From contig JASFYL010000009.1 of assembly GCA_030055575.1 (NCBI GenBank), positions 1-33,222 of the forward strand: a DNA stretch of 33,222 bases. Direction: 5' to 3'. Source of the DNA: Thermoproteota archaeon. Lineage in GTDB: Archaea > Thermoproteota > Methanomethylicia > Methanomethylicales > Methanomethylicaceae. Under the pieces are notes generated by a model, which had not been told where the DNA came from, searched no databases, and worked only from the letters and a program-made list of their open reading frames with translations. Shown one piece after another: positions 1 to 15,952 of this stretch. The position numbers and the translations under genes are program-made. Position 1 is the first letter of the stretch. Each line of letters opens with the position of its first letter.

Positions 1-270
1 TTCCCCTATCAGTTCATCCCCGCATGTGATCTTGATGTACGTACAGTTCGGCCAGACAAAGCTCCTGTCCGTTGCGCAAGCGTAAACCTTCTTCCTCTTT
101 AATGCCTCCCTAACGCCGACATTGATGCCTTGGCACAGCCCCATCAGCACGCCCTTTTCAGACTCACACTCAAGTCTAAGGACTTCCTCCTTTTCCTCTT
201 CTGTGAGCTCTTTAACACACACTATTCCGCCAATCTTCCTTATTCTATCTGCCATATCACCTTCTGACAT
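1..270 (-). CDS. Partial hypothetical protein (C-terminus cut by window edge), N-terminus MSEGDMADRIRKIGGIVCVKELTEEEKEEVLRLECESEKGVLMGLCQGINVG...
   Basis: My reverse-strand translation is open from ATG at 270 to the window edge. The ATG overlaps the stop region of the upstream ASKHA gene by 14 nt, which suggests translational coupling. Confidence 0.7.
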   Translation of the reverse strand, partial: MSEGDMADRIRKIGGIVCVKELTEEEKEEVLRLECESEKGVLMGLCQGINVGVREALKRKKVYACATDRSFVWPNCTYIKITCGDELIGE

Positions 271-2152
271 AGCGCCTTACCACCCTCGGTGCCTTGATGA
301 CCCCCGCAGTCTCCGGAAATTCCTCTAGCCTGCTGTTGGGTATGTACATAGCATTTACGTATTCTTCTTCAAATATTGGTTTTGCTGCTAACTCTATATA
401 CTTTATTTTTGAGGCGACCAGCTGGGCCTCGGTCCTCATTTCTACCGACTTGAGACATAGCCTGGCACCAGACCCTGCTGTGTTCCCAGTAAAAGATATC
501 CTGTCTAATGGGATTTCGGGTATCATTCCAATAGTCCTTGCGCTCCTTGGGTCAATATAATTTCCAAAAGCACCAGCTATAACCACCTCTGAGAGGGAAT
601 TCCTGTCGAAGCCCCCTTCACGCACGAGGGTCATATAACCGGCATAAATCGCGGCTTTTGCTTTTTGGATCTCCCTGATGTCGTCCTGAGTTATCACGAG
701 GTCTTCCTTGCCCGTCTCTGTCTCCTCTTTCCCAACCAATACAAATTCCTTCCCGCCCTCCCCATCCCTGACGCCTCCTCTTTCCAAGATCCTCCCTGAG
801 GTATCTATTAAACCAGCCTTTAGCATCTCGGCCACGGCGTCAATCATCCCGGATCCGCATATCCCCCTGGGCTTCTTGTCGTCGATCGTCTTGTAGGAGA
901 CCCGAAGATCCTCATCGTCGATCCATACCTTCTCGATTGCCCCACTCGCGGCCCTCATGCCGCACCTTATGTGGGCGCCCTCGAAAGCGGGTCCTGATGC
1001 GGTTGAGCATGCCCAAATCCCGTTCTTGTCCCCCAGCATCACTTCGGTGTTTGTCCCTACGTCCATCAGGAGGGTGAGCCTTTCCTTCTCATGGAGCTTG
1101 GAGGCAAGGATATCTGCTATGGCATCCGCGCCCACAAATCCCGCCACGTTGGGGAGGAAGTGCACATTGCCCGAGCGGTTTATCCCTATCCCCACGTCCC
1201 TTGCCTTCGCGTCGAAAGCCCTCCCCATCCCGGCAGCGTATGGCGCCAGTCCAAGGCTCTTCACGTCGATCCCAAAGATGAGGTGATGCATTGCTGTGTT
1301 CCCGACCACGACCGCTTCATATATCTCGTTTCTGTCAATCTCAACGCTCGCAGTACCAGAGCCTATCAACTGGTTTACCCCTTCGAGAACAGCGCTGCGT
1401 ACCTCCTCGAGCTTCTCAATACCCTGCGACGCGTAGTTGATCCTTGTGATCACGTCCTCCCCAAACCTTATCTGCGGATTCATGATTCCATCCGCGTATA
1501 CTATTGATCCATCGTTGAGGTCAACTATGAATGCTGCGAGCTTCGTGGTTCCGACATCCACTGCGAGCCCGTACTTCTTCGCTGTCGTGTCGCCTTTCTC
1601 CAACGCAGTTACCTCTCCCCTACCAGTCACCACGGCAGTGACCTTCCACCCCCCCTCCCTGAATACCCTCGGGAGTTCTCGCGCCACGTGGGCGTCGATC
1701 TTCAGCCCTCTGTATCCCATCTCGGATAGCTTTCCTAGGAGCCTTTCGTCGTCAGCCGAGGGGTCATTCAGTGTTGGGGGTTCAAGCTCGAGGAAGATCT
1801 TTTCAACATTGCACTTCAGCTCTATCATCGGCTCCTTTCCCATTATTACTAGCCTCTGTTTGCCCACTCTGCTCTGGTCTGGCACTCTGACGGTTACCTC
1901 GCCCTTGACGTACGCCTGGCAGGCGAGCCTGTAGTTCTTGTCCCTTTCCCCTGTGATCCTCTTCTTTTCTTGTTCTGTGGGAGGGGAGACCTTTCCATCC
2001 ACAATCTCGATGAGACACTTCCCGCAGTAGCCTTTCCCCCCACAGATGGCAGCGAGATCCACACCACACAGCTGCGCAGCAGACATCAGGGAGGTGCCTT
2101 CTCGGATCCTACATCTCTTCCCTTCCGGAAGGAACCTCACCTCAAAACTCAA
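257..2152 (-). CDS. [2Fe-2S] ferredoxin plus ASKHA/DUF4445 ATPase-domain protein, RACo/RamA-like reductive activator
   Basis: N-terminal plant-type ferredoxin cysteine pattern (CGVDLAAICGGKGYCGKC...C). Long ASKHA-like body with GLAVDVGTTKLAAFIVDL, LLMDVGTNTEVMLG and VVIAGAFGNYIDPRSA. TTG start overlaps the atwA stop by 11 nt. Confidence 0.85.
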   Translation of the reverse strand: MSFEVRFLPEGKRCRIREGTSLMSAAQLCGVDLAAICGGKGYCGKCLIEIVDGKVSPPTEQEKKRITGERDKNYRLACQAYVKGEVTVRVPDQSRVGKQRLVIMGKEPMIELKCNVEKIFLELEPPTLNDPSADDERLLGKLSEMGYRGLKIDAHVARELPRVFREGGWKVTAVVTGRGEVTALEKGDTTAKKYGLAVDVGTTKLAAFIVDLNDGSIVYADGIMNPQIRFGEDVITRINYASQGIEKLEEVRSAVLEGVNQLIGSGTASVEIDRNEIYEAVVVGNTAMHHLIFGIDVKSLGLAPYAAGMGRAFDAKARDVGIGINRSGNVHFLPNVAGFVGADAIADILASKLHEKERLTLLMDVGTNTEVMLGDKNGIWACSTASGPAFEGAHIRCGMRAASGAIEKVWIDDEDLRVSYKTIDDKKPRGICGSGMIDAVAEMLKAGLIDTSGRILERGGVRDGEGGKEFVLVGKEETETGKEDLVITQDDIREIQKAKAAIYAGYMTLVREGGFDRNSLSEVVIAGAFGNYIDPRSARTIGMIPEIPLDRISFTGNTAGSGARLCLKSVEMRTEAQLVASKIKYIELAAKPIFEEEYVNAMYIPNSRLEEFPETAGVIKAPRVVRRYVRR

Positions 2153-3821
2153 TGCCTTCCTCCTCCAGGAGTCTCTTCACAACCGAGGACGGATCTCCGT
2201 CCATGACAACCCTCCCGTTCAGCATCAGTATTGCACGATCCGAGACCTCCTCTAGGAGATCCAGCTGGTGGCTGACGAGCACAATTGCCGGTCTGAACTT
2301 CTCCTTCACCATCTTGAGCGAGTTGGCAACCGTCCTGAGCGTTATGGGATCCAGGTCCCCAAAGGGCTCGTCGAGGATAAGTACCTTGGGGTTTGCCACG
2401 AGAGACAGCGCCAAGGCTACCCTGATCTTCTCCCCCCCGCTCAGCTCGTAAACATGCCTCTCAAGTATGTTTGTGCCGAGCCCTACAGCCTCAAGCACAG
2501 CTACGGCGACGCTTTTCGCCTTCTCGGGGTCTTTGGTTTTGAAGAGTTCTCTCAGCAGATCTTGGCTCATTCCCATCTCGTCGAGCTTTGCCTTCATCTC
2601 CCCCTCAGGCAGCTCAGAAACCCTGCTCAGTGCGTCAACTACTTCGTCGGAGATCCCGCTCCTTTCAGCCCTTTTCAGCGCAGCCAAAAGTGCCCCGTAG
2701 TCCTTTAACCCAAGCTTCGCTGCGAAGAGGTCCAGCACCTTGGCAAAGTGAGGCAGGTCGAACTCCTGGTGCAGAATCCCGATCCTCCTCCGGGCCATCA
2801 GGTTCTTCCTGCCGAGCCTGCCCAAGACGACCCATTCCCCCTTGTAGGTTATCTTGACCTCCCCCTTGTCTGGGATCTCCAATCCGGAGAGCATCCTGAG
2901 AATTACGGTCTTTCCTGCCCCGGATGGACCGACGATGCCCGTGATCTCCCCCCTCTTGAACTCCAGGTTAGTTTCGGTCATCTCGAAGACCATTCCGTAT
3001 GGGATCAGCTTGTAGACCTTACTTGCCCCCTCCATCTTCAGGACGACCTTGCCGTCCAACTTTACCTTCCTTACAGGAGCCTCCAGCCTGGATAGGAACT
3101 TGGAGAGGACTGCCTCGGTCTTGCCGTCGTCTACCACCCTGCCCTTGTCGATTAGGATGGTCCTCACGGAAAGAGACCTGTGAATTTGCGGATTGTGGGA
3201 GGCGAAGAGGATCGCAGTCCCGAGCTCCCGGTTTGCCCGCTTCAGGGCGTCTAGTAGTGCTTCCCTGGTTGCTGGGCAGGTCATGGTGCCAGGCTCGTCT
3301 AGCAACAGCAGTCTGGGCTTCCTGGCGATCTGACGGGCGATGATCAGCCTCTGCTTCTCTCCACCGCTGAGCACCTCAGACCAAAGCTCGGCGCGCCTTT
3401 CCAAACCAACTACCTTCAGTATCTCCATGGCTCGTTCGCGGTATTCCCTGTACTCTCCCTCCCCCTCTGGGATGGTCTCTTGGAATCCGTCGGAGTACCT
3501 TATCGCCCTGATCACGTTGTCGACTGCACTGTCTGGCCAGAGCCCGAAGCTCCTCTGCAACTGTATTGCAGTCAGCTTCTGGAGCTCGAGAAGATCGCTC
3601 TTTGGCGAGTTTGGGCTGATTTTCAGGTTATCGAAGGAGATGGTCCCAGAATCGAAGCTCTCCACTCCTCTCAAGATCTTCAACAATGTGCTTTTACCTG
3701 CGCCGCTCTCGCCTGCAATGCCAAGTATCTCCCCTTCTTCCATTGAGAATGTTACCCCTTCCAGGGCGATCACGCCATGTTCAGGGTACTTCTTTGTTAA
3801 GCCGTTCACTTCGAGCAACAC
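2142..3821 (-). CDS. atwA: Methyl-coenzyme M reductase system component A2 (tandem ABC ATPase)
   Basis: Two ABC modules, with Walker A motifs GESGAGKST and GPSGAGKT and signatures LSGGEKQR and LSGGEKIR. Position in an mmp cluster. Confidence 0.9.
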   Translation of the reverse strand: MLLEVNGLTKKYPEHGVIALEGVTFSMEEGEILGIAGESGAGKSTLLKILRGVESFDSGTISFDNLKISPNSPKSDLLELQKLTAIQLQRSFGLWPDSAVDNVIRAIRYSDGFQETIPEGEGEYREYRERAMEILKVVGLERRAELWSEVLSGGEKQRLIIARQIARKPRLLLLDEPGTMTCPATREALLDALKRANRELGTAILFASHNPQIHRSLSVRTILIDKGRVVDDGKTEAVLSKFLSRLEAPVRKVKLDGKVVLKMEGASKVYKLIPYGMVFEMTETNLEFKRGEITGIVGPSGAGKTVILRMLSGLEIPDKGEVKITYKGEWVVLGRLGRKNLMARRRIGILHQEFDLPHFAKVLDLFAAKLGLKDYGALLAALKRAERSGISDEVVDALSRVSELPEGEMKAKLDEMGMSQDLLRELFKTKDPEKAKSVAVAVLEAVGLGTNILERHVYELSGGEKIRVALALSLVANPKVLILDEPFGDLDPITLRTVANSLKMVKEKFRPAIVLVSHQLDLLEEVSDRAILMLNGRVVMDGDPSSVVKRLLEEEGIEF

Positions 3822-3834
3822 AGCTTCGACCCCC

Positions 3835-4740
3835 TCAGAACATCGACCTAGGAAGCACTTTCACTAAAATATAATTCCTCATAAGCGATCTCTTGATGAC
3901 CGCAACCTCTGAGAGGCTGCGCCCTTCGATGTTTACCTTGCCTATCCTTTCCTTGTAATCATCGTAAGGTAGCTTGACCCTGATCCCATCTATCTTTAAT
4001 GTGACCGGATTAGGTGAGAGTGCCTCTGCGGCCTCAGGCACCTGCCTCTCTACTTCGTTCTTAACAACAATCGGCTCAACGACCAGTGGATCCATGTCCA
4101 TCTCCCTCCTCCTCTGCTCCACGATTACGCCTGCAAGCCTTGAAACCTCTTTCAGCTTTTCGATAGCATCTCCCGTTCTCGCTCTCTCAGGGTACCTTCC
4201 AATCCCGCCAACGTAGCCTTCGGCGCCTGACAGCCCTCCTATAATGGGTCCCCCAGTCACAATCACCGGGACCTCGATCTCCTGGAAGAGTTTGGTCTTC
4301 TTCAAAAGGCAAGCCTCGAAGTTACCGAGGGTGAATACCGCGAGGTCGTGTTCCTCTATCAGCTCCTTCTCCTTCATTGTGGTGTGGACTATCTTCTGAC
4401 CCACTCCCCTTGAAAGCCCTATTATGTTAGTTTTAGCCCCGTGCCTTCGTAGGTTCTCAGCAATGTCGCACGCAGGATGGGGAAGGTGGTGCCTTGAGAG
4501 CGTGGGTGCGATTACCCCGATCTCAGTGCCTATGAGGGGGGCCTCTGTGATCTTGCCCTTCAACTCTGAGACGATGGTCTTGAGCATTTCCAATTCCTCC
4601 TCCGGGACGGCTATGTTCATTATTAGGTCGAGGCCAACCACTGTCTTCTGGACCACGAATCCGCCCACGTCCTCGAGGAACTCGATTATCCTCTCGTGCC
4701 TATAGAGGCCCCCCTCGAAGAGCAGGAACTTAAGCACCAC
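3835..4740 (-). CDS. mmp7: Methanogenesis marker protein 7
   Basis: ORF given as 3835..4803. The family-like start is probably VVLKFLLFEGGLYRHERI (GTG at 4740 or 4737), just past the mmp17 stop. Mmp7-like sequence and synteny with mmp17 and atwA. Confidence 0.85.
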   Translation of the reverse strand: MVLKFLLFEGGLYRHERIIEFLEDVGGFVVQKTVVGLDLIMNIAVPEEELEMLKTIVSELKGKITEAPLIGTEIGVIAPTLSRHHLPHPACDIAENLRRHGAKTNIIGLSRGVGQKIVHTTMKEKELIEEHDLAVFTLGNFEACLLKKTKLFQEIEVPVIVTGGPIIGGLSGAEGYVGGIGRYPERARTGDAIEKLKEVSRLAGVIVEQRRREMDMDPLVVEPIVVKNEVERQVPEAAEALSPNPVTLKIDGIRVKLPYDDYKERIGKVNIEGRSLSEVAVIKRSLMRNYILVKVLPRSMF

Positions 4741-5275
4741 TCCCCCCTCCCATTTGCGCGGCGAGCGCTTTCCACTCCTCTTTGATCGGATCCTCGGAGG
4801 CAATTATCGTGAGAGTGCCCTTTCCCCTCGTTGCGCTCCTGACCCTGAATCCTTCTGGGATTATCCTAGTGGCTAGCTCGTTGATCCTCGACTCGAGGTC
4901 GTACCCCTTCTCGCTCAGCCTTATCCCCTTAACCTCGTCTGGGTCTGCCCCAGAGACGAATATCTCGAGCCTGCCTATCTGCTCCACCCTGTCCCTCCCG
5001 TACTTGGACCAGAGTGCCTTGAGCGCATCGCCAAGGAAGATCTCGCTGCTCAAGGTCACCCTTATTCCATTCTTCCTAGAGTCGATATACGAAGCCTCGC
5101 CAAGTGTGCTCTTGCCAGAGAGTTCTTTGTACTTTATCCTGATGATGAAGACAGGCTCCCCGACCTTTATCTTAATCTCGATCGACTCTATGCTTCCGCC
5201 TAGGCCGAGATCCTCTACGCTCTTCTCTGCTATGTACCTGTATTGCTGCCCTCCTAGTTCCTCATCAGCGTCCAC
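4730..5275 (-). CDS. mmp17: Methanogenesis marker protein 17
   Basis: Mmp17-like sequence (GGQQYRYIAEKSVEDLGL...ALWSKYGRDRVEQIGRLEIFV). Synteny between mmp6 and mmp7. The start codon is uncertain (see findings). Confidence 0.8.
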   Translation of the reverse strand: MDADEELGGQQYRYIAEKSVEDLGLGGSIESIEIKIKVGEPVFIIRIKYKELSGKSTLGEASYIDSRKNGIRVTLSSEIFLGDALKALWSKYGRDRVEQIGRLEIFVSGADPDEVKGIRLSEKGYDLESRINELATRIIPEGFRVRSATRGKGTLTIIASEDPIKEEWKALAAQMGGGSGA

Positions 5276-5282
5276 GAAGATC

Positions 5283-5684
5283 TTAACTGTGTGCCACCTC
5301 CGATTCTATTATCTCCTTGAGCTTACCTACCTCCAGCTTCCCCTTCTTCCTCTTAGCAGGCGCTTCGCCTTCTTCCTCAAGGGCTCTGGAGACATTCCTA
5401 AGGACTTCCCTCTCGGCGCTGAGCATATGATATCCTGGTCTCGGCCCCCCGCCCCTCTTTGCCCTGCAGATTCTCTCGTCCCCTATACGGTACCCTCTTT
5501 GCTTATAGAAGATCCTCTTCGGATCAAGTGCCCTAAGCTCGGCCAAGGCCCTCTCGACGTTTTCTACTTCTCCTTCAATGAGAATACCGTAGCATGTCTC
5601 CTTGTATTCTATCCCTTCAAACGAAGCCGCCTTTTCTGCTAGCATCGATGGCGTCAAGCTAGAATCTGGAGAGAGCACAACCAA
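5283..5684 (-). CDS. mmp6: Methanogenesis marker protein 6
   Basis: Mmp6-like motif QRGYRIGDERICRAKRGGGPRPGYHMLSAE. Located between mmp3 and mmp17. Confidence 0.87.
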   Translation of the reverse strand: MVVLSPDSSLTPSMLAEKAASFEGIEYKETCYGILIEGEVENVERALAELRALDPKRIFYKQRGYRIGDERICRAKRGGGPRPGYHMLSAEREVLRNVSRALEEEGEAPAKRKKGKLEVGKLKEIIESEVAHS

Positions 5685-5692
5685 GAATGTCT

Positions 5693-7222
5693 TTATCGTG
5701 CTCCCACCTCCTGTAAATAGATTTCATCGCCTTCCTTCACGCCTTTAAGCAGAGTGAGCCCTCCGACCACCTCTCCGATGAGGTTGGTTCCGTCAAACCC
5801 TTCGGCAGTGGGACCGAATCTGTCGCTGTCAGTCAGCCTTACCCCGATCATCCCAACGAACTTCTTGACGGTGTTCGTCAGCCCTATCTGCCCTGAGCGT
5901 ACCCTTTCGGTTGGCACATTCTCTGGCGTCAGCCCCTTAGCGATCCCCCCATCCCCCCTGAAGAGCACCATCTCCATCTTGGGGTTTGAGAAGTATACCC
6001 TTAGCTTTCCGTAGGTCTTACGTTCGAGCCCCGTGACCGCCCTGAAGTACTTGACCGAACGCGGTGCGTCTTCGTAGTATAGCCTAACTTTGAGGATCTT
6101 CTCAGGGGACGTTGTCTTGCAGACGACCTCTCTCTTCTTGTAGATCTCGAGAGTGTTCTGGGGCATATGCTCGACTATTATTCCTTCCCTTTCATCACCC
6201 TCTAAGAGCACTTTTATATTCAGTTCCCTGAGGAGCTCCTGGGCCTCGCTGAAACTCTTCCCCAAGATCCTTATCCTTTTCGGACGTGGCAGAACGGAAA
6301 GTACGTCTCCTTCCTCTGCGAGGTCTACGAGCTCCATGCCGCTCAGAACTTTTCCCACGATCGTGTGGGATTGGGCGAGCGGGACGTCCTTCTTGTATAT
6401 GTAAAGCCCACCGACATTCTCGCCGCTATTCCGTACAGTAACAGTCCCCCTTCTTCTTTCCCCCATCTTCTCTGCAACGAGGGATGTCACCTTTAACTCG
6501 TTGCTGCAGATGTAACTGCTGGCATCTGAAGTCACCTTTATGATCCCCTGATCAAGCATGTTATAGGCATGCTCTCCGCAGACTGGTGAGTCGTATTCCA
6601 GGGATAGCTCAACTCGGGTGAAGATCTTGTCAGACTCCTCGAGGATCATCCCGGGCTCTCCCCTCAATAGCGACTTTGTTCTTTCCCTAACCTCCAAGAC
6701 CGGTTTGACTGAGAGTATCTTGTCTCCCATCTTGAGAGAGCCGATCAAGTGTCTCCCATATACGACCCTCCCTAATGCGGCGCACCCCCTTGGCGGATAG
6801 TAAGACGCCAAGTGGGGTCTCTTGGAGAACACGAGGTGGGCATTTTCCCTGCTGAGCCCTGAGAGGCTTATTGTCACTTCTGTTCTGGCGAGTGTTACTG
6901 GTTCGAGCGAAGGTTCTGCGTCAAAGAATGACGGACCAAAAACTACCGCGTCCTTGGTCACCCACCTGACGCCTGAACCCTCGAATCCATGATAAGCCTT
7001 CTTCCACACCTCCAGAAGTACCTTGCAGTCGACCTTGATAATCATACGCCCCTGTGTCGTCTGAAACTCGAACAGATCCGTCTCTATGCTCTCTTCACTG
7101 ACCTTTCTCCTGACCGCTATGAGTCGCCCGTCGGTCGCCCCGAGTCCTGCCTTACTCAGGATCGATCCTAGGCTCTCACCATTCTCTGCCTCGAACTCTT
7201 CCCCATCGATAGCGATCTTCAA
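5693..7222 (-). CDS. mmp3: Methanogenesis marker protein 3
   Basis: 509 aa Mmp3/UPF0288-like protein. N-terminus MKIAIDGEEFEAENGESLGSIL, internal FGPTAEGFDGTNLIGEV, and position in the cluster. TTG start. Confidence 0.87.
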   Translation of the reverse strand: MKIAIDGEEFEAENGESLGSILSKAGLGATDGRLIAVRRKVSEESIETDLFEFQTTQGRMIIKVDCKVLLEVWKKAYHGFEGSGVRWVTKDAVVFGPSFFDAEPSLEPVTLARTEVTISLSGLSRENAHLVFSKRPHLASYYPPRGCAALGRVVYGRHLIGSLKMGDKILSVKPVLEVRERTKSLLRGEPGMILEESDKIFTRVELSLEYDSPVCGEHAYNMLDQGIIKVTSDASSYICSNELKVTSLVAEKMGERRRGTVTVRNSGENVGGLYIYKKDVPLAQSHTIVGKVLSGMELVDLAEEGDVLSVLPRPKRIRILGKSFSEAQELLRELNIKVLLEGDEREGIIVEHMPQNTLEIYKKREVVCKTTSPEKILKVRLYYEDAPRSVKYFRAVTGLERKTYGKLRVYFSNPKMEMVLFRGDGGIAKGLTPENVPTERVRSGQIGLTNTVKKFVGMIGVRLTDSDRFGPTAEGFDGTNLIGEVVGGLTLLKGVKEGDEIYLQEVGAR

Positions 7223-7250
7223 TCGATCTACGCTCCAGCGGCAGCACTAC

Positions 7251-7276
7251 ATTATTAAATCCCTGATTAATTTATA
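7251..7276. promoter_or_regulatory. Divergent promoter region between mmp3 (-) and mcrD (+)
   Basis: AT-rich TATA-like elements attattaaat (7251-7260, usable on the minus strand) and ttaatttata (7267-7276, about 16-25 nt before the mcrD ATG). They lie in a 69-bp divergent intergenic region. Confidence 0.5.
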
Positions 7277-7291
7277 GGTTAGTGATCCGAG

Positions 7292-7618
7292 ATGTCTCAG
7301 TCACCTCACCCTAGAGAGATCGAGGTCATGCCAAGGAGACTGATGAGCTCCAAGAAAGCGACGGATCTCTCTGCTATAATGCGCGAGACCGATGGAGTAG
7401 AAGAGGTTCTTACACACACAATCAAGTACTCGGGGGGAGGAGCCGTAACGGGGAGGTTCATACTCGTCCTCAAGGAGGGATTCAAACCCGAGGATGTGAT
7501 TGAGAAGATAAGACCTGTTTGTGAACAATCGATGCCATATGGCTATGACATCAGGGTGGGTCAGTTCACCAAGCCAAGACCGACTGTTAAGGACTACCTC
7601 CGCGGGCTCAAAAGGTGA
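7292..7618 (+). CDS. mcrD: Methyl-coenzyme M reductase operon protein D
   Basis: McrD-like sequence IEVMPRRLMSSKKATDL...PYGYDIRVGQFTKPRPTVKDYL. Followed directly by mcrC. Confidence 0.85.
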   Translation: MSQSPHPREIEVMPRRLMSSKKATDLSAIMRETDGVEEVLTHTIKYSGGGAVTGRFILVLKEGFKPEDVIEKIRPVCEQSMPYGYDIRVGQFTKPRPTVKDYLRGLKR

Positions 7619-8304
7619 AACATTTGCAGGATTCGATCGGAAGGGACGTCCAGATTGTCGATTGCCGGGAATCTATGGGCATAGGCGAAGGTGGGGGTCT
7701 TGCCCAGCGCGGTACGATCTCGGAGTCCGAAAGCTTCGAAGTAGTTGCTGTAGCGATGTCTCCCTCGAAGCGGCACATAACAAAGCCTATCTGCGAGATC
7801 ACCTATGGGTTGAGGGAGCAGGGGATACGTACCAGCGTGCTTGTACTGGAGTCCGGGGCGGGTGTCCCTCCCGACTCCCCTTACGGGGGGGCCCCTGGCG
7901 GGTCTATGGCAGGAATCAACGAGAAGGAAGTCTTCCAGATCAGAAGGTTCAAGCTTGCTTTGATGCACCTCGGTGGCATAAGCGGTCATGTAGTACACAA
8001 GGCTAAGTCTTTCTTGAGGTATGTTGACATACCTGCTATTATAGTGTGCGAGGCACCCGTAGACTATGAGGACTTTGCCAAAGTCGGCATAATCACCAGG
8101 CTTGTACGCCCGCCCCCCGGAAAGGTGGAGTGCGCAGGGGTAATACTAGACCTCGTCACTGGGGTGGTCAGGGGTGTAAGCTGCCCGAGGGACAAGCTGA
8201 ATGAGATAGTGATAAAAGTAAAGTTCTGGCTGAGTAAGATCAGCGCTGATGAAGTGATGCTTGGGAGGAACGAGATTGGCAAAGGTATTCATATTCCCGC
8301 CTAA
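7615..8304 (+). CDS. mcrC: Methyl-coenzyme M reductase operon protein C
   Basis: Strongly McrC-like: VDCRESMGIGEGGGLAQRGTISES, AVAMSPSKRHITKPICEITYGLR, LRYVDIPAIIVCEAPVDYEDFAKVG. GTG start overlaps the mcrD TGA (GTGA). Confidence 0.93.
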   Translation: MKHLQDSIGRDVQIVDCRESMGIGEGGGLAQRGTISESESFEVVAVAMSPSKRHITKPICEITYGLREQGIRTSVLVLESGAGVPPDSPYGGAPGGSMAGINEKEVFQIRRFKLALMHLGGISGHVVHKAKSFLRYVDIPAIIVCEAPVDYEDFAKVGIITRLVRPPPGKVECAGVILDLVTGVVRGVSCPRDKLNEIVIKVKFWLSKISADEVMLGRNEIGKGIHIPA

Positions 8305-8740
8305 CAGCCTAATCCTCTATGATCTGGTGACGCGCGAGGGTCATAAGCCCTTAGGTCTGGGCGAGGAGGTATCAAAGAACCTCTCCAAGCCGGAGATCGA
8401 CTCCCCCCCTATGAACATAACCCCTGAGTTTCCGAGGCGTGGACTGAAGTACGCGGCGATAGAGGTCCCTTCAGGGGTGAGGGGCAGGCTGGCACTGATT
8501 GGGCCCCTTATCGAGGAGGCAGACGCAGCCATAGTCGTTGAGGATCCCGAGGCACTGTTCGGATGCGCTAGCTGCGGCAGGACAAACGAGTTCATCCGAT
8601 ACATAATTAAGCGGAAGGGCCTCCCAGTGGTTACCGTTCCCTACCCCAGAACAGAGGAGGATGCGAAGATAATGGTGTCCAAAATAAGGTCATTCCTGAA
8701 ATCTTTGGGTGATAAGAATGGTATGCCTAGTGGTAGATGA
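8261..8740 (+). CDS. mmp5: Methanogenesis marker protein 5
   Basis: Mmp5-like: VFIFPPNSLILYDLVTREGHKPL, RGLKYAAIEVPSGVRGRLALIGPLIEEADAAIVVEDPEALFGCASCGRTNE. TTG at 8276 is an equally plausible start. Confidence 0.88.
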   Translation: MGGTRLAKVFIFPPNSLILYDLVTREGHKPLGLGEEVSKNLSKPEIDSPPMNITPEFPRRGLKYAAIEVPSGVRGRLALIGPLIEEADAAIVVEDPEALFGCASCGRTNEFIRYIIKRKGLPVVTVPYPRTEEDAKIMVSKIRSFLKSLGDKNGMPSGR

Positions 8741-9224
8741 TGATAGACTCGCAGGAACCTGTAGCGCTCTCTTGGACGAAAAGTCCAGAGAAGTACTGCT
8801 GTCCCTTCAAAAGGGTCCGCTTACCCTCGACCAGTTGTCCGAGATGCTTATAATAAGCAAGAAAGACGCGAAGGACCGCATAGAGCGCCTCACTGAAGCG
8901 AAGCTGGTCAGGAGGACTCCTGGGATAGCAGGAGGTCCAGACCTATACTCGCTAGAGTTCTCCATGGAGATAGAAGGAGCATGCCCAGATCAGTCCCTGG
9001 TCGAAGAGCTGTACCAAGAGATCGGCAACTCCTTCTTCTCTTTCCTAGAGAAGAACTCTGATAAAATATCTGCACTCTGCGACTCTATGGGAGCTTCCCT
9101 CGGAAGGGCAGTGGAACAAGTATTTCTCAGCTCAGTCTCGAGGGTGGTGAAGGATCTTCAGATCGAGATTAATGAAGAGGACAGGCGGCTTAGCGCCCAC
9201 CTCGGCACAATCCAGCCTACATGA
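8709..9224 (+). CDS. Winged-helix (ArsR-like) DNA-binding domain protein with C-terminal helical domain
   Basis: LDEKSREVLLSLQKGPLTLDQLSEMLIISKKDAKDRIERLTEAKLVRRTPG reads as a winged HTH. Overlaps the mmp5 3' end. ATG at 8718 is an alternative start. Confidence 0.7.
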   Translation: MIRMVCLVVDDDRLAGTCSALLDEKSREVLLSLQKGPLTLDQLSEMLIISKKDAKDRIERLTEAKLVRRTPGIAGGPDLYSLEFSMEIEGACPDQSLVEELYQEIGNSFFSFLEKNSDKISALCDSMGASLGRAVEQVFLSSVSRVVKDLQIEINEEDRRLSAHLGTIQPT

Positions 9225-9498
9225 ACCTCTTCAGCATCTCGTTCATCTTTTTTACAATAAACTCCTGCGCCTTTTCGAGGCTCTCCCTGCTCCCCACCAG
9301 TATCCATGCCATTGGGGCCGCCTCATTCTCCCCGATCCCTGGGACTCTGACTTCTCTCTCTCTTAGCTCTACCCCGAAAGTATTGACTGCCTCTGCTATC
9401 ACCGAATACGGAGTCCCAGCTGGGACCGGCAGACAGTAGATCCCATCCTCTCTTTCCCCTCTCTCTCTTCCCACATCCTCGCGGTCTCTATTCCCCAT
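9217..9498 (-). CDS. Hypothetical small protein (93 aa)
   Basis: ORF with plausible alternating alpha/beta pattern (PYSVIAEAVNTFGVELREREVRVPGIG...MAWILVGSRESLEKAQEFIVKKMNEM). Convergent with the winged-helix gene, 8 nt overlap. Confidence 0.55.
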   Translation of the reverse strand: MGNRDREDVGRERGEREDGIYCLPVPAGTPYSVIAEAVNTFGVELREREVRVPGIGENEAAPMAWILVGSRESLEKAQEFIVKKMNEMLKRFM

Positions 9499-9682
9499 AA
9501 TTCAAGGATCAACTGACTTCGGTTTATCTCCTTTTCGGAAAGTCTGAATGCCTGGAGTGTTCGGTTATTGTATGCCGAGATCGTTCTGTCTTTCTTTTTG
9601 TTCTGGCAGCGTCCCCACCATCCCGCGGCGCCTAATTCGGTGGCGCTCTACTGATCAGCGCAAGACCCCTTCATTCGATCCG

Positions 9683-10258
9683 CTATCTGCTCGGGTTAAA
9701 TAGGACCTCGCGTAGTAGATCACTTATCTCGGCATCGTGGATCTCATCAATTAATTTTCCCACCTCTGATTCGCAGGAATCCAGGATGTCCGACACCTCA
9801 AAACCTCTTTTGCGGTATTCTTCCGCCTGTCTTAGCGTTGCTAGCAAATCTGCCAATTTTACTATCTTTGCTTCGATAGTCTTTCTCGATATGTACTCGG
9901 AGAAGAGTTCCAACAGCCCATCCCACCTTTCCCCGATATCCCGAAGCAATTCAAATTCTATCCTCTCCTTCTCTTCCTGTCCCAACACCTTAGACAGGTT
10001 CTTCGGCATGTCTCCGGAAATCGCCTCCGCCAAGTCGTGGATCATTCCCATCAAAATCATTTTTTTTCCGTCTACCTTGTCTTCCTTCGAGGAAAGGCGT
10101 AGGGTAATGAGGCTGAGGATCGCTGTGACCTTGAAGGTATGCCCGGCTATGGTCTCCGCTTCGAAACGAGGGACCCCCCTCTGGAGCCATCCAGTCCTGG
10201 GGATGTTCTCCAAAACAGAAAATATATGCAAAATCCTCTTGGTTTCCACACTTACCAC
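9683..10258 (-). CDS. HD-domain phosphohydrolase (YfbR/5'-nucleotidase-like)
   Basis: AGHTFKVTAIL ... MGMIHDLAEAISGDMPKNL HD motif arrangement. Confidence 0.82.
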   Translation of the reverse strand: MVSVETKRILHIFSVLENIPRTGWLQRGVPRFEAETIAGHTFKVTAILSLITLRLSSKEDKVDGKKMILMGMIHDLAEAISGDMPKNLSKVLGQEEKERIEFELLRDIGERWDGLLELFSEYISRKTIEAKIVKLADLLATLRQAEEYRKRGFEVSDILDSCESEVGKLIDEIHDAEISDLLREVLFNPSR

Positions 10259-10454
10259 CTTGATGACTCTCGAGCGTTTCTATTTAAAAGCAACTCCAGA
10301 ACTCGTGTCAATGATCTCCAGGTAAGTGGGTGCTGATCTACCGAATAATCTAGCGAGGGTCCTTTGGATTCAGATGCTCCATGTTTATCTCGAACGAATG
10401 AGGTGAGGGTAAGGAGCAGACGCTCGCCCTAGATGCTGCCATTGATTTACCCTT

Positions 10455-11723
10455 CTATTTGCTGTTACCTCCCCTCCTTATCTCTCCAATGATCTCTTTG
10501 GCCCTCGAAAGCCTGATGTTCTTCTCAGCTATCATGATCTGAGCAACTTTTTCGATCTCTATACCCTCTGCTCCAGCCATCACGGCGATATTCCTGGAAT
10601 GCAGCCTCATGTGCCCCTTCTGTATCCCTTCGCTCACCAGTGCCCTTAGCGCGGCAAAGTTTTGGGCAAGCCCAACGGCACACATCACCTCGGCGAGCTC
10701 GTTCGCCCCGCCCACGCCGAGGATTTTCAATGCCACCTGGGCTACCGGATGCACCTTGGTAGCGCCCCCAACAGTCCCGACGGCTAACGGCAACTCAAGC
10801 TCTCCCACTAGATCGCCATGCTCGTCCCTCCGCCATCTTGATAGGGGCTTATATCCGCCCGAGAGCGCAGCGTAGGCATGAGCACCAGCCTCTACCGCCC
10901 TTGCGTCGTTTCCTGTAGCGATGGCTACGGCGGTAATACCGTTCATGATGCCCTTGTTGTGGGTCACAGCCCTATAAGGGTCTGACAGGGCAAAGTCATA
11001 AGCCGCCAGAACCCCCTCGACCACTTCCTCTCCTATGCGGTCTCGCCTGTATACCACGCTCGCTCTGGAGATTCTCTCTGTAGCTAGGTTGGAGATTATC
11101 CTTAGGAGGCTCCTCCCGCCCGTCAGCTCTTCGAGCTTCGGCGCAATCCCCTCTGCTATTGTGTTGATTGCGTTGGCTCCCATCGCATCTCTGCAGTCAA
11201 CATAGAGTTCGACAACCAGCATTTTGCGGGGTGAGTCATAAGCCTTGACTCCGATGTCAATCGCCCCCCCGCCCAGCTTTGGGAGAGACCCTGCGTATGC
11301 GTTCGCCTCATCGAGGATCTCCTTTCTTGCGGAGAGCACATTCCTTGCGCTACCTTCGAGGTCTTCCAAACCGATAATCTGAACCTGTCCTCGCACTATG
11401 GGTCTGGTGCTGGTTGCGATGAACCCGTCTGGAAGAGCAAGCTTAGCGGCATGGCTCGCCGCCGCAACAACCGACGCCTCTTCAGTTGCCATGGGCACAA
11501 GGTAATCCCTGCCGTTCACTCGAAAGTTCGTTGCAATGCCCAGGGGAAGCTGGAACATCCCTATTACGTTCTCGACCATCGTATTGGCTAGTTCGATAGG
11601 GAGCCCCTCCCTCAGCTTACTGAGGTCCTCTTCGCTTAGCCCGGCTATTTTCTTGACAATCTCGAGCCTTTCTTGTAATCCCATCCTGTAAAAACCGCTG
11701 ATCGCTGGTTTATCCACGATCAA
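10455..11723 (-). CDS. mvaA: Hydroxymethylglutaryl-CoA reductase, class II type
   Basis: ENVIGMFQLPLGIATNFRVNGRDYLVPMATEEASVVAAASHAAK, YRAVTHNKGIMNGITAVAIATGNDARAVEAGAHAYAA. These class II (Pseudomonas mevalonii-type) motifs are read by eye. Confidence 0.9.
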   Translation of the reverse strand: MIVDKPAISGFYRMGLQERLEIVKKIAGLSEEDLSKLREGLPIELANTMVENVIGMFQLPLGIATNFRVNGRDYLVPMATEEASVVAAASHAAKLALPDGFIATSTRPIVRGQVQIIGLEDLEGSARNVLSARKEILDEANAYAGSLPKLGGGAIDIGVKAYDSPRKMLVVELYVDCRDAMGANAINTIAEGIAPKLEELTGGRSLLRIISNLATERISRASVVYRRDRIGEEVVEGVLAAYDFALSDPYRAVTHNKGIMNGITAVAIATGNDARAVEAGAHAYAALSGGYKPLSRWRRDEHGDLVGELELPLAVGTVGGATKVHPVAQVALKILGVGGANELAEVMCAVGLAQNFAALRALVSEGIQKGHMRLHSRNIAVMAGAEGIEIEKVAQIMIAEKNIRLSRAKEIIGEIRRGGNSK

Positions 11724-12989
11724 TCACCACTGCCAGAGCCGTATTTGAGTATGTTTGAGTAGAGCTGTATGTGGTCATCTGCCCCCCGCTTTGTAGAGAA
11801 ATGCTTTTCGTAAATTTCCTTGCTCCTCCTGCCCATCTCCTCGGCTAGGATTGGGTTTTTAATTATGTGCTTGATCGCACCTGCAAGGGATCCTGGATCG
11901 TTCGGTCTGACCAAGTACCCGTTGATTCCAGGCCAGATCTGGCTCGGGATCCCTCCTACTGCAGTACCTATCACTGGTTTCCCAAACGCCATCCCTTCAG
12001 AAATCGCAAGTCCGAACCCTTCATGTAGGGACGGGAGTACTACAAGGTCACACTCCTTATACGCAGCCATAAGCAGCTCGCGGTCGATCGCCCCAGCCAA
12101 AATCACCCTCCCCCCATAAATTGGTTGGTTAGCCCTCTCGCGGAGCTCACTCCTGTATTCCTCTTTGTCTTTAACCCTCAAAATATCCTTACTAAAAGAA
12201 CCATTTCCTATGAAGACAAGCCTGTAACGAAAGTCTAGCTTTGCTGCAGCCTCCAGAAGAATGTCCTGCCCTTTGAATCTGTCTATCCTAGCAACACAAA
12301 TGATCAGTTTCTCATCCCAACCTATCCCAAACTTCTCCCTGAAACTGAGTTTGGGCTCCTCGACATCTATGAACGGGGGTATCACCGTTACCCTGTCAAA
12401 GGGAATACCTGACTTTATTGCTGCACTAACGTAGTGCTTGGTAGAGAAGACAGAGCTGGCGCAGTGGCTTATGTGTCTGATTACAAACTCCCTCCAATCG
12501 TGGTGTATCTCCTCAGTGAATGGTATGTGCCAGGTGAAAACTAGGGGCAAATGTATGCCTTTGAGGAGCGCCACGCTCGAAAGTAGCTGGAAGTCGTGGA
12601 CATGTATGATATCGGGATCTTCCGATCTGATCACCTCCAAAATCCTCTTATGAAATGCCTCGTTGACCTTGATATAATCGTTGAAACCGTATAGGTGTTT
12701 GTTGTAAAAAGTCTCTAATGGGACTTTCTTGTTATGGAAGACCTTTAGAACGATCTCCTTGAATTCTGTATACCCCTGCAGGGTCTCCTTCCCAAACTCA
12801 CCCTCTGCAGGGACCCTGAATACCTTGAACCCTGCAATTGACTCGATCGCTTTCCCCCTTGGGGGCTTCATGTTAACGAAAACCACCTCGTGACCTAGCT
12901 CCTTCAACCTTCTCCCTAGCCATGCCAAGTAGTAGGAAACCCCGCCGGTGCTGGGTAAGAATGACTGACTTGCGTACAATATCTTCATT
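11720..12989 (-). CDS. Glycosyltransferase family 4 protein
   Basis: ORF given as 11720..13054. The start MKILYASQSFLPSTGGVSYYLAWLGRRLKELGHEV lies at ATG 12989. ADLVVLPSLHEGFGLAISEGMAFGKPVIGTAVGGIP-like EX7E region (CDLVVLPSLHEGFGLAISEGMAFGKPVIGT). Confidence 0.87.
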
Positions 12990-14619
12990 TGGCGCCCACT
13001 GCCCTCACATACGACAGCTGGAAGTCGTTTATAACCCGCATAGTCCTCAGGCACTCGGCTGCCGTAATTATCCTGTTCCTGTTCTCTGGAGACAATAAGT
13101 CAAAGGTTTCCCTCGCTTTGAAAAGCATTGTCGAGAGCAACTCCCAATTGCCCTCGATATACCTCAGACCGTTCCTTACTAGCGATGTCGCCCTAACGCT
13201 CTCGACCTTCCCCTTTTCACTGAAAAAGATTTGGGGCTCCACTGCGTCGAACTTGCCCTCGGTTGAGAAGAGATAAAATGGAATCTGGAGGAGACTGACT
13301 TCCTCCTTCGATTCTCCTTCGTCGTTTAGCATGAATGACTCGATATTCCAGCAGTCGCTCTTTACTTTACAGAGTATGAACTCCAGATATTGCCTCTCTC
13401 TTTCGAACTTGAGTCTCTCGTTTGCCTCTTGGGCTCTTATTTCAATGAGACCTCGCTCTTTCTCCTCGCTCAAGTTCAAGAGCTGCCTGACCAGCGCCTC
13501 CCTCCTCCCGGTGAAGCACTTGTGGAGGTTGTTGAGTTCATCCTCCTCCTTTGCAGGGAGGAGCCTCTCCTTTTCAAGTATGGTTTTAATCTCTTCATCG
13601 GTTCTATTTGCCTCATCCCTGAGCCTTCCTATCTCTGTAGAGATCTCGTTGAATCTCTTGACACAGCCCTCCAATCCATTGCTGAGCTTCCAGAGTTCCC
13701 TGCTATGTTTCTCCCTGGATCTTACGCTCTCATTGACCTTGCTAGGTAAGTCCCCTGCCTCCAGCACCTCGACCTTATTCTTTTCGATTGCCTCTCGCAG
13801 ACGGTCAATCCTCTTTGATATCGACTTTTTTTGAGAAAGGATCTTCTCCTTTTCAGCCTCAAGCTCGTTAACCTTTGTTCTCAAATCAGCCGCCTTCCTT
13901 TCAAGCACTTCCCTCTCCTGCCTGAGTTCTTCTCTCCTTTTAGCAAAATTCATCTTGAGCTCCTTTGCAACGGCTCTCTCTTTGTAGGTCTCAATGCCCT
14001 CGATCTCAAGGTTCTTCAGCGAGATCTTCTTGTCAAAGTCCTCGAGAATGGACCTGTACTCTTCAGCGAGCTCGAGCTGAACCTTGTTGTGCCGGTCGTT
14101 GAGGGATGCGAGTTCCTTCTCCAACAACCCGATCACACCTCTGTTCGAGTCTAGAATATTCTTTATCCGGAGGGCTATCTTCTGGGCATCCTCCTTTGAG
14201 ACTGCTGGGGGCAGGGCTATTCCGTTGCGCACACCCTCCACGGAGGAGGAATTTTCATTCCAGGTCCTGAGCCAAGGGCATAGGTCGGTGCCTAGAATGG
14301 GCAGTACGTACATCTTTGAGACGAGCCCCTCTTCAGACAAGCTGTCCTCGTAGAGGTACGTCTGGTTCATGCCGAGCCCATCGACAGGGATTATGTGCCC
14401 CTCGCACCTGACGAGGTAGAGTGGATAATAGATCCTGAATATAAAATCCGTCCGGCGCCCTTCTTCTCTAAACACTTTGAGGGCGCTTGTCCATCTTCTC
14501 CTTAGTGCACCAGATGCTTCTAGGATCGCGATCACATCGCTAAGGTCGGGAGTTAGAGCCCTTGTAATGCCGTCCTTGTCTTTTGCGTAGGCAAAGTTCA
14601 GCAGAAATATCGTCATCAC
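12985..14619 (-). CDS. Hypothetical protein: N-terminal globular domain, long central coiled coil, C-terminal globular domain
   Basis: 544 aa. Roughly residues 165-430 are rich in E/K/R/L heptads (KRREELRQEREVLERKAADLRTKVNELEAEKEKILSQKKSISKRIDRLREAIEK). Stop overlaps the GT4 start (ATGA). Confidence 0.78.
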   Translation of the reverse strand: MMTIFLLNFAYAKDKDGITRALTPDLSDVIAILEASGALRRRWTSALKVFREEGRRTDFIFRIYYPLYLVRCEGHIIPVDGLGMNQTYLYEDSLSEEGLVSKMYVLPILGTDLCPWLRTWNENSSSVEGVRNGIALPPAVSKEDAQKIALRIKNILDSNRGVIGLLEKELASLNDRHNKVQLELAEEYRSILEDFDKKISLKNLEIEGIETYKERAVAKELKMNFAKRREELRQEREVLERKAADLRTKVNELEAEKEKILSQKKSISKRIDRLREAIEKNKVEVLEAGDLPSKVNESVRSREKHSRELWKLSNGLEGCVKRFNEISTEIGRLRDEANRTDEEIKTILEKERLLPAKEEDELNNLHKCFTGRREALVRQLLNLSEEKERGLIEIRAQEANERLKFERERQYLEFILCKVKSDCWNIESFMLNDEGESKEEVSLLQIPFYLFSTEGKFDAVEPQIFFSEKGKVESVRATSLVRNGLRYIEGNWELLSTMLFKARETFDLLSPENRNRIITAAECLRTMRVINDFQLSYVRAVGAK

Positions 14620-14914
14620 CTCTAAACCGTACCCGTCCTATTTAATCCGATCTTTTTTATCCTTAACGGACAACCTCTCAAGGGTCTGGGGCATCCTACG
14701 CTTTTCTGATTTCTGTCGGGATCTTGCCCAAGCGGGCATCCGGCCGAACCTTCTCCAGTTTACTGCCGCTTCGCTAATGCTGGATCGTCTGTGGTGACGA
14801 TAATTGACTGATATTCTATAATCCGCTCTTCAGCGAACTGCTTACTTGCGTTGACCTACTGGGACGCGTAATGCTTTTTAACAAGGCTTGATTATCGAGT
14901 AGCAGGTGCCACCT

Positions 14915-15061
14915 ATGGCAAATTATCTGTGCGAAAAATGTGGTAAGGTTATCAAAAGCGAAGACCTGATCGGTCTTCCCGGCATAAGGTGTCCGTCGTG
15001 CAGCCACAGGATCCTCTACAAGTCCAGATCGCCCATAATAAGGGAGATTCGAGCCCGCTGA
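14915..15061 (+). CDS. rpoP: DNA-directed RNA polymerase subunit P (Rpb12-like)
   Basis: 48-aa ORF MANYLCEKCGKVIKSEDLIGLPGIRCPSCSHRILYKSRSPIIREIRAR, zinc ribbon CxxC...CxxC and typical RILYK/ReiRAR ending. Below the length cutoff of the supplied ORF track. Confidence 0.88.
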   Translation: MANYLCEKCGKVIKSEDLIGLPGIRCPSCSHRILYKSRSPIIREIRAR

Positions 15062-15067
15062 GGTATC

Positions 15068-15952
15068 TCATTTCCGCTTCATCATCGTGCAGATCTCGAA
15101 TATCATTTTAGAAGCTAGCAGAGCCGTGATGCCCATATCGTACTTTGGTGCAACTTCCACTATGTCGAAGCCGACGACCCTTTCGTCTATCACCTCTTGG
15201 AGCATATCGAGGAGCAGGCTTGGGTGAATCCCCTCTGGCTCAGGGTTGCCGACCCCAGGGGCATAAGAGGGATCGATGACATCCATGTCGATCGTGATGT
15301 AGACCTTTTCCGAGCCCTTCAGCGCCTCCCTCAACCACGAGGAGGAAGATTTGGTTCCTTCCCTTAATAGGTCCCTCGAGGTCATGAACTTGATTCCGTT
15401 CTCCTTGACCCACCTCAATTCCTCCCCGAAGGTCGCCCTCACCCCGCAGAAGATTACTCTGTCCTTCCCTTCCTCCTCCATCACCCTCCTCATAACGCAG
15501 GCATGAGAGAGCCTGTTCGAGAGGTACTCGTCCCTGAGGTCAAAGTGCGCATCAAAAGATACGAAAGTGCACCCTTTGATCGCCTTGGCTGCCCCGAGCG
15601 TCATGAGATGCTCCCCTCCAACCATAATCGGGATCTTTCTCGTCGAGACGATGTCTTCGACAGTGTCCCCGACCCTCCTTATCGTCTCCCCTGCATCGCC
15701 GTGGACGACTGCTAGGTTTCCGAGGTCGTGAAGCCTGAGTTCCTCAAAATCAGTTCCGGTTCTCCATGACCACGTCTCTATGTTTGCCGAAGCCTCCCTG
15801 ATCGCATCTGGACCGAAGCGCGATCCCGGTCTATAGCTGGAGGTACCGTCAAACGGGACCCCAAAAAGCGCAAAATCCGACTCTGCATAATCCCTTTTGA
15901 ACCCTCCAAAATATGCTGGGCGGTCGTCAAGATAGAATGGAATATGCGGCAT
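15068..15952 (-). CDS. speB: Agmatinase (ureohydrolase family)
   Basis: GGEHLMT, FVSFDAHFDLRDEY and ITIDMDVIDPSYAPGVGNPEPEG metal-binding motifs. Confidence 0.9.
   Translation of the reverse strand: MPHIPFYLDDRPAYFGGFKRDYAESDFALFGVPFDGTSSYRPGSRFGPDAIREASANIETWSWRTGTDFEELRLHDLGNLAVVHGDAGETIRRVGDTVEDIVSTRKIPIMVGGEHLMTLGAAKAIKGCTFVSFDAHFDLRDEYLSNRLSHACVMRRVMEEEGKDRVIFCGVRATFGEELRWVKENGIKFMTSRDLLREGTKSSSSWLREALKGSEKVYITIDMDVIDPSYAPGVGNPEPEGIHPSLLLDMLQEVIDERVVGFDIVEVAPKYDMGITALLASKMIFEICTMMKRK

Follow-up and report, generated by a model that had tools for sequence, protein, structure and literature searches.

A RACo-type reductive activase gene in the MCR activation operon of Methanomethylicia, with a probable role in corrinoid reactivation

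MCR makes nearly all biological methane. How the nickel of F430 is reduced in vivo, and which electron donor serves that reduction, is a still-open question (PMC12176620). The MCR activation complex of M. maripaludis contains McrC, Mmp7, Mmp17, Mmp3, A2 and a DUF2098 protein, with no RACo; its physiological electron donor is unidentified, the authors suggesting a ferredoxin and citing corrinoid activation as an energetic parallel (PMC12176620). Corrinoid activation proteins themselves are known from archaea, as in the mtrH-mttB-corrinoid-corrinoid activation protein clusters of Culexarchaeia (PMC9723716).

We examined a window of 33,222 nucleotides, the entire contig C97 of a 1.36-Mb Methanomethylicia assembly (88% complete) whose nearest named relatives are Candidatus Methanosuratincola. 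In it, a RACo-type activase is encoded together with Mmp3, Mmp7, Mmp17 and A2 as a single conserved gene block (Table 1). In the literature searched, mostly without subscription papers, we came across no paper that places a RACo gene in an MCR activation operon, in line with a reading made earlier from the sequence only, which knew of no such coupling as a described system. The conserved RACo-A2 arrangement and the downstream gene ORF1 appear to be undescribed in that literature, their component proteins being of known kinds.

Table 1. Features of the activase gene, its operon and the divergent genes beside it (window coordinates)
Feature	Coordinates	Strand	Basis
ORF1, first 90 aa of a protein of about 181 aa, cut by the contig start	1..270	-	14-nt overlap with the end of RACo; no Pfam/NCBIfam family
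RACo-type reductive activase, [2Fe-2S]/linker/middle/ASKHA ATPase, 631 aa	257..2152	-	Pfam, PDB 3zyy, conserved ligands
C-terminal ASKHA ATPase domain (RACo_C_ter), residues 359-615	308..1078	-	PF14574
N-terminal [2Fe-2S] (Fer2) domain, residues 10-83	1904..2125	-	PF00111; ligands conserved
A2/RACo overlap, 11 nt (A2 stop 2142, RACo start 2152)	2142..2152	-	Spacing conserved across the order
MCR activation component A2-like (atwA), twin ABC ATPase	2142..3821	-	PF00005 twice; TIGR03269 below cut-off
Mmp7	3835..4803	-	TIGR03274 above cut-off
Mmp17 (DUF2113)	4730..5275	-	TIGR03291 above cut-off
Mmp6 (DUF2102)	5283..5684	-	TIGR03272 above cut-off
Mmp3	5693..7222	-	TIGR03268 above cut-off
McrD-like, divergent from the operon	7292..7618	+	PF02505 above gathering; TIGR03260 below its cut-off
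McrC	7615..8304	+	TIGR03264 above cut-off
Mmp5 (DUF2112)	8261..8740	+	TIGR03271 above cut-off

The activase and its operon

The activase frame begins with a TTG codon, and this start is supported because homologues begin at the same residue and the overlap spacing recurs. PF00111 (Fer2), PF17650 (RACo_linker), PF17651 (Raco_middle) and PF14574 (RACo_C_ter) all score above gathering, so that what the sequence-only reading had called a [2Fe-2S]-ASKHA protein is a full-length RACo-type protein with the domain set of that family. Its best solved relative in a PDB sequence comparison is RACo itself (3zyy, E=6e-125, residues 3-614). The [2Fe-2S] cysteines C37, C43, C46 and C78 are conserved across a 44-member family alignment, as are the ASKHA motifs. 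The best NCBIfam match is AcsV (NF040756), at 502.8 bits against a curated cut-off of 800. Identity with RamA was considered and rejected: the RamA model TIGR04270 gives 150.7 bits against a cut-off of 500, and a Pfam search did not find the C-terminal dicluster 4Fe-4S domain that is present in the genome's true RamA. Firm grouping inside RamA, together with predicted binding to corrinoid proteins only, had been named beforehand as an outcome that would refute the proposed coupling, and the protein does not group there.

On the minus strand the operon reads mmp3-mmp6-mmp17-mmp7-A2-RACo-ORF1. The gene order through atwA and the overlap of atwA with the activase gene had been read correctly from the sequence; that reading did not mention ORF1, which lies downstream and overlaps the activase gene. 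For the A2-like protein the component A2 model TIGR03269 is the best NCBIfam match, reaching 319 bits of a curated 517; we call it A2-like because of its twin ABC domains, its gene neighbors and this sub-cut-off match. The Mmp7 and Mmp17 frames as listed overlap by 74 nt (window 4730-4803), and judging by this overlap and by relatives the true Mmp7 start probably lies a little downstream.

In a class-wide search, RACo and Mmp7 were both found in all 23 genomes of the Methanomethylicia order (families f1 and f2). The two genes are about 2.8 kb apart in 22 of these; in the remaining one (G022) RACo stands at the end of one contig and Mmp7 on another. Sixteen named Methanomethylicia loci have the same order mmp3-mmp6-mmp17-mmp7-A2-RACo, some being cut at contig ends; named loci and numbered genomes are partly identical genomes, and their counts are not additive. 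The A2/RACo overlap is 11 nt in 14 of 19 distinct readable loci, counted after removal of two duplicate entries, with a spacing of -14 in two, +1 in two and +50 in the deepest member, and the RACo/ORF1 overlap is 14 nt in most loci. Euryarchaeal atwA neighborhoods were covered through control genomes and a scan with the window protein.

Because gene order is conserved across the entire order, a chance arrangement is excluded. The possibility that the linkage belongs to this genome only, raised earlier as a potential refutation, was likewise rejected, RACo being linked to Mmp7 and A2 in 22 of the 23 genomes. The conserved overlaps argue strongly for a single unit linked in translation. Synteny of this kind could also be inherited from one ancestral insertion, carrying no regulatory or mechanistic meaning whatever the target of the activase: one event in one order would suffice, and the atwA-linked proteins need one change on the tree. 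We regard such neutral inheritance as unlikely, since the RACo-A2 linkage is kept in all eight genera of the order although ORF1 has been lost or moved in two genomes, and since the exact 11-nt and 14-nt overlaps are retained in most loci.

Candidate targets of the activase

The AcsV/RACo annotation would make the protein an activator of the CODH/ACS corrinoid iron-sulfur protein (CoFeSP), in keeping with AcsV as its best model match and with the RACo genes of three genomes (G003, G004, G007) that lie in CODH/ACS operons, at most 1.2 kb from CdhD. The AcsV score stays under its cut-off, however, and on the tree the CODH/ACS-linked RACo proteins stand apart in a clade with strong support. The Wood-Ljungdahl pathway is absent from Methanomethylicia (PMC10033731). 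No intact CdhD was found in any of the 23 genomes, apart from one weak partial match in G018, and the cognate CoFeSP (CdhD/CdhE) was not found in the 88% complete source assembly. We therefore rejected CoFeSP as the target; with CoFeSP absent this reading is already largely refuted, and we give it almost no credence.

Methyltransferase corrinoid proteins are encoded in every one of the 23 genomes, at 1-10 per genome, and RamA in 11. The window-type RACo is the only PF14574 protein in ten genomes (G009, G011, G012, G024-G030), which span genera g3, g5, g6, g7 and g8 and encode 1-6 corrinoid proteins each; it is likewise the only one in G015 and G018, incomplete genomes from RamA-bearing genera. 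Unless an unrelated activator exists, the sole RACo of the ten would be what reactivates their corrinoid proteins. The true RamA of the source genome (G000:C24) adjoins mtaBC and mtaA, and a division of labor between RamA and RACo is therefore plausible in Methanosuratincola.

Relatives outside the operon were also examined. Most relatives in the same class neighbor corrinoid, mtrH or CODH/ACS genes: besides the three in CODH/ACS operons, five RACo genes have a corrinoid gene no more than 2 kb away (G001, G006, the second copy of G010, G037 and G038), and that of G039 adjoins mtrH. The second RACo of G010 (L133, G010:C18, 108-3190) follows a corrinoid protein gene and one for a 116-aa unidentified protein. 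On the haloarchaeal plasmid NZ_CP100467.1 (L146), genes for a corrinoid protein, an ASKHA activase and a DUF1638 protein stand in a row. Among 400 genomes of the phylum RACo occurs in 134 and Mmp7 in 28, so the RACo family, taken overall, does not depend on MCR.

We consider it probable that this RACo is the order's general ATP-driven corrinoid reactivator, embedded in the MCR activation operon. Its targets would be the corrinoid proteins, methylamine-type and other short ones, that belong to the substrate methyltransferases. It would return their oxidised Co(II) corrinoid to Co(I) as RACo does, the electron coming from the [2Fe-2S] domain and the ASKHA domain coupling the uphill step to ATP. 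Such corrinoid proteins feed methyl-CoM to MCR in these methyl-reducing methanogens. With the activase at the operon end, overlapped by 11 nt on the A2 side and 14 nt on the ORF1 side, the machines that start up Co(I) and Ni(I) would be co-expressed, and the arrangement suggests that the cell starts both metal-based halves of its energy pathway together, which may be the purpose of their co-expression. The earlier proposal that shared expression ties corrinoid activation to MCR activation fits these data well: no CoFeSP, corrinoid proteins in every genome, a sole activase in ten, and relatives next to corrinoid, mtrH or CODH/ACS genes.

Several observations speak against a corrinoid target. 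The operon contains no corrinoid gene of its own. On the tree the atwA-linked proteins group together (100/100 for 16 of 17 rows; support for the placement of the deepest member, G009, is only 78/31), and they occur only in MCR-bearing genomes, a distribution that leaves room for a shift to MCR. The group shares a 100/99 clade with the RACo of one genome of family f9 that has MCR genes, unlinked to that RACo. The retention of this RACo in genomes with RamA could point to a target other than a corrinoid protein. Throughout the order MCR is accompanied by both corrinoid proteins and RACo, and the two targets cannot be told apart there by distribution alone. Corrinoid proteins are favored by the need of the RamA-less genera and by the neighborhoods of relatives, MCR by operon position alone.

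The activase might instead serve MCR exclusively, its [2Fe-2S] domain passing low-potential electrons to the Fe-S clusters of McrC, Mmp7 and Mmp17 for reduction of F430 to Ni(I), while A2 does the conformational work. This would account for the order-wide place in the operon with its conserved overlap with A2, for the retention of RACo beside RamA or a second RACo, and for the separate sequence group; the physiological donor of the M. maripaludis complex is also yet to be identified, and its authors themselves draw the comparison with ATP-driven corrinoid activation. Yet that co-purified complex activates MCR in vitro without RACo (PMC12176620). Moreover, Mmp3/6/17/7, McrC and A2 are present in the MCR-bearing sister family f9 with no RACo beside them, and in M. 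jannaschii Mmp7 is present and no PF14574 protein was found. Two Mmp7-bearing f9 genomes, only 67-72% complete, have neither RACo nor corrinoid proteins. RACo thus does not accompany MCR activation genes in MCR-bearing archaea generally, and under an exclusive MCR role ten genomes would be left with no corrinoid activator of the RACo/RamA family. We judge that role improbable. The earlier suggestion that the protein supplies electrons to MCR activation fares poorly for the same reasons, operon membership being its only support against f9, M. jannaschii and the M. maripaludis complex.

One activase could also reduce both the methyltransferase corrinoid proteins and the MCR activation complex, joining the genomic need for a corrinoid activator with the operon linkage. 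We know of no precedent for two such targets among characterised RACo/RamA proteins, and think this quite improbable. Taken more broadly, RACo, perhaps with ORF1, might donate electrons to the nitrogenase-like Fe-S relay in the MCR activation complex, whether exclusively or in addition to corrinoid service; we hold this to be doubtful, if worth keeping in mind. If it were true, a corrinoid activator would have gained a nickel-tetrapyrrole target and would be the electron donor that has been missing for MCR activation in Methanomethylicia.

ORF1, a conserved neighbor

The remainder of ORF1 is at G000:C79:1-363, contig C79 beginning with it, and a further ORF1 locus is L003:11886-12431. The family occurs in all 23 genomes of the order and in none of 17 other genomes of the class. 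ORF1 has no Pfam, NCBIfam or PDB sequence match. Its AlphaFold model is confident (pLDDT 88.5); the best Foldseek match is the FMN nitroreductase-like FbiB (E=0.26, TM 0.35), and no fold was assigned.

An ORF1 paralogue (28% identity) adjoins RamA in the mtaB-mtaC / RamA / mtaA locus of the source genome (L063), and paralogues stand beside RamA in nine of 11 RamA loci: L063, that of G010 (L140) and seven more at the same distance. This placement makes ORF1 a probable partner of such activases in reductive activation. In L063 (G000:C24:50000-69000), positions 7236-15217 hold mtaB-mtaC, a divergent RamA, the ORF1 paralogue, a 337-aa protein of no family, a CobW-like GTPase frame and mtaA, a gene set that recurs in G010.

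G029 and G030 have no ORF1 after RACo in the MCR operon. Elsewhere in these genomes an ORF1-family gene is followed by one for a 193-aa corrinoid-like protein (L147, G030:C20, 5506-6646; L148, G029:C12, 6476-7616). Distant homologues of about 25% identity are found at L149 (G024:C1, 6200-6832) and L150 (G010:C15, 4919-5536), with no activase or corrinoid gene nearby.

Comparison with known activation systems

For the question of MCR activation, the conserved translational overlap offers an ATP-driven electron-transfer protein as a concrete candidate. If its target is corrinoid, methyl-reducing methanogens would have both of their metal-reactivation machines in a single unit of expression, and the genera without RamA would have an assigned corrinoid activator. 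ORF1 represents an undescribed family, which in these genomes accompanies RACo as well as RamA, and it may be a component so far missed in such activation systems.

The window protein has in common with RACo/AcsV of Carboxydothermus and Moorella (PDB 3zyy, 4c1n) the four-domain layout over its full length, the [2Fe-2S] ligands and the ASKHA motifs. It differs in scoring below the AcsV cut-off, in belonging to an MCR activation operon and in having ORF1 as a conserved neighbor, and the classic RACo/AcsV target, CoFeSP, is missing from its order. RamA (TIGR04270) shares the middle and ASKHA domains; it has no N-terminal [2Fe-2S] domain but two 4Fe-4S motifs at its C terminus, and the window protein is the opposite on both counts. 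The target that we propose, methyltransferase corrinoid proteins, is nonetheless the one that RamA serves. In the Culexarchaeia clusters (PMC9723716) and on the haloarchaeal plasmid an archaeal RACo/ASKHA gene is next to corrinoid genes, whereas the window activase adjoins MCR activation genes. Four subunits of the M. maripaludis complex (PMC12176620), namely Mmp7, Mmp17, Mmp3 and A2, are operon neighbors of the activase, and McrC is encoded divergently here; compared with that complex, which has no RACo-type subunit, the operon adds Mmp6, RACo and ORF1.
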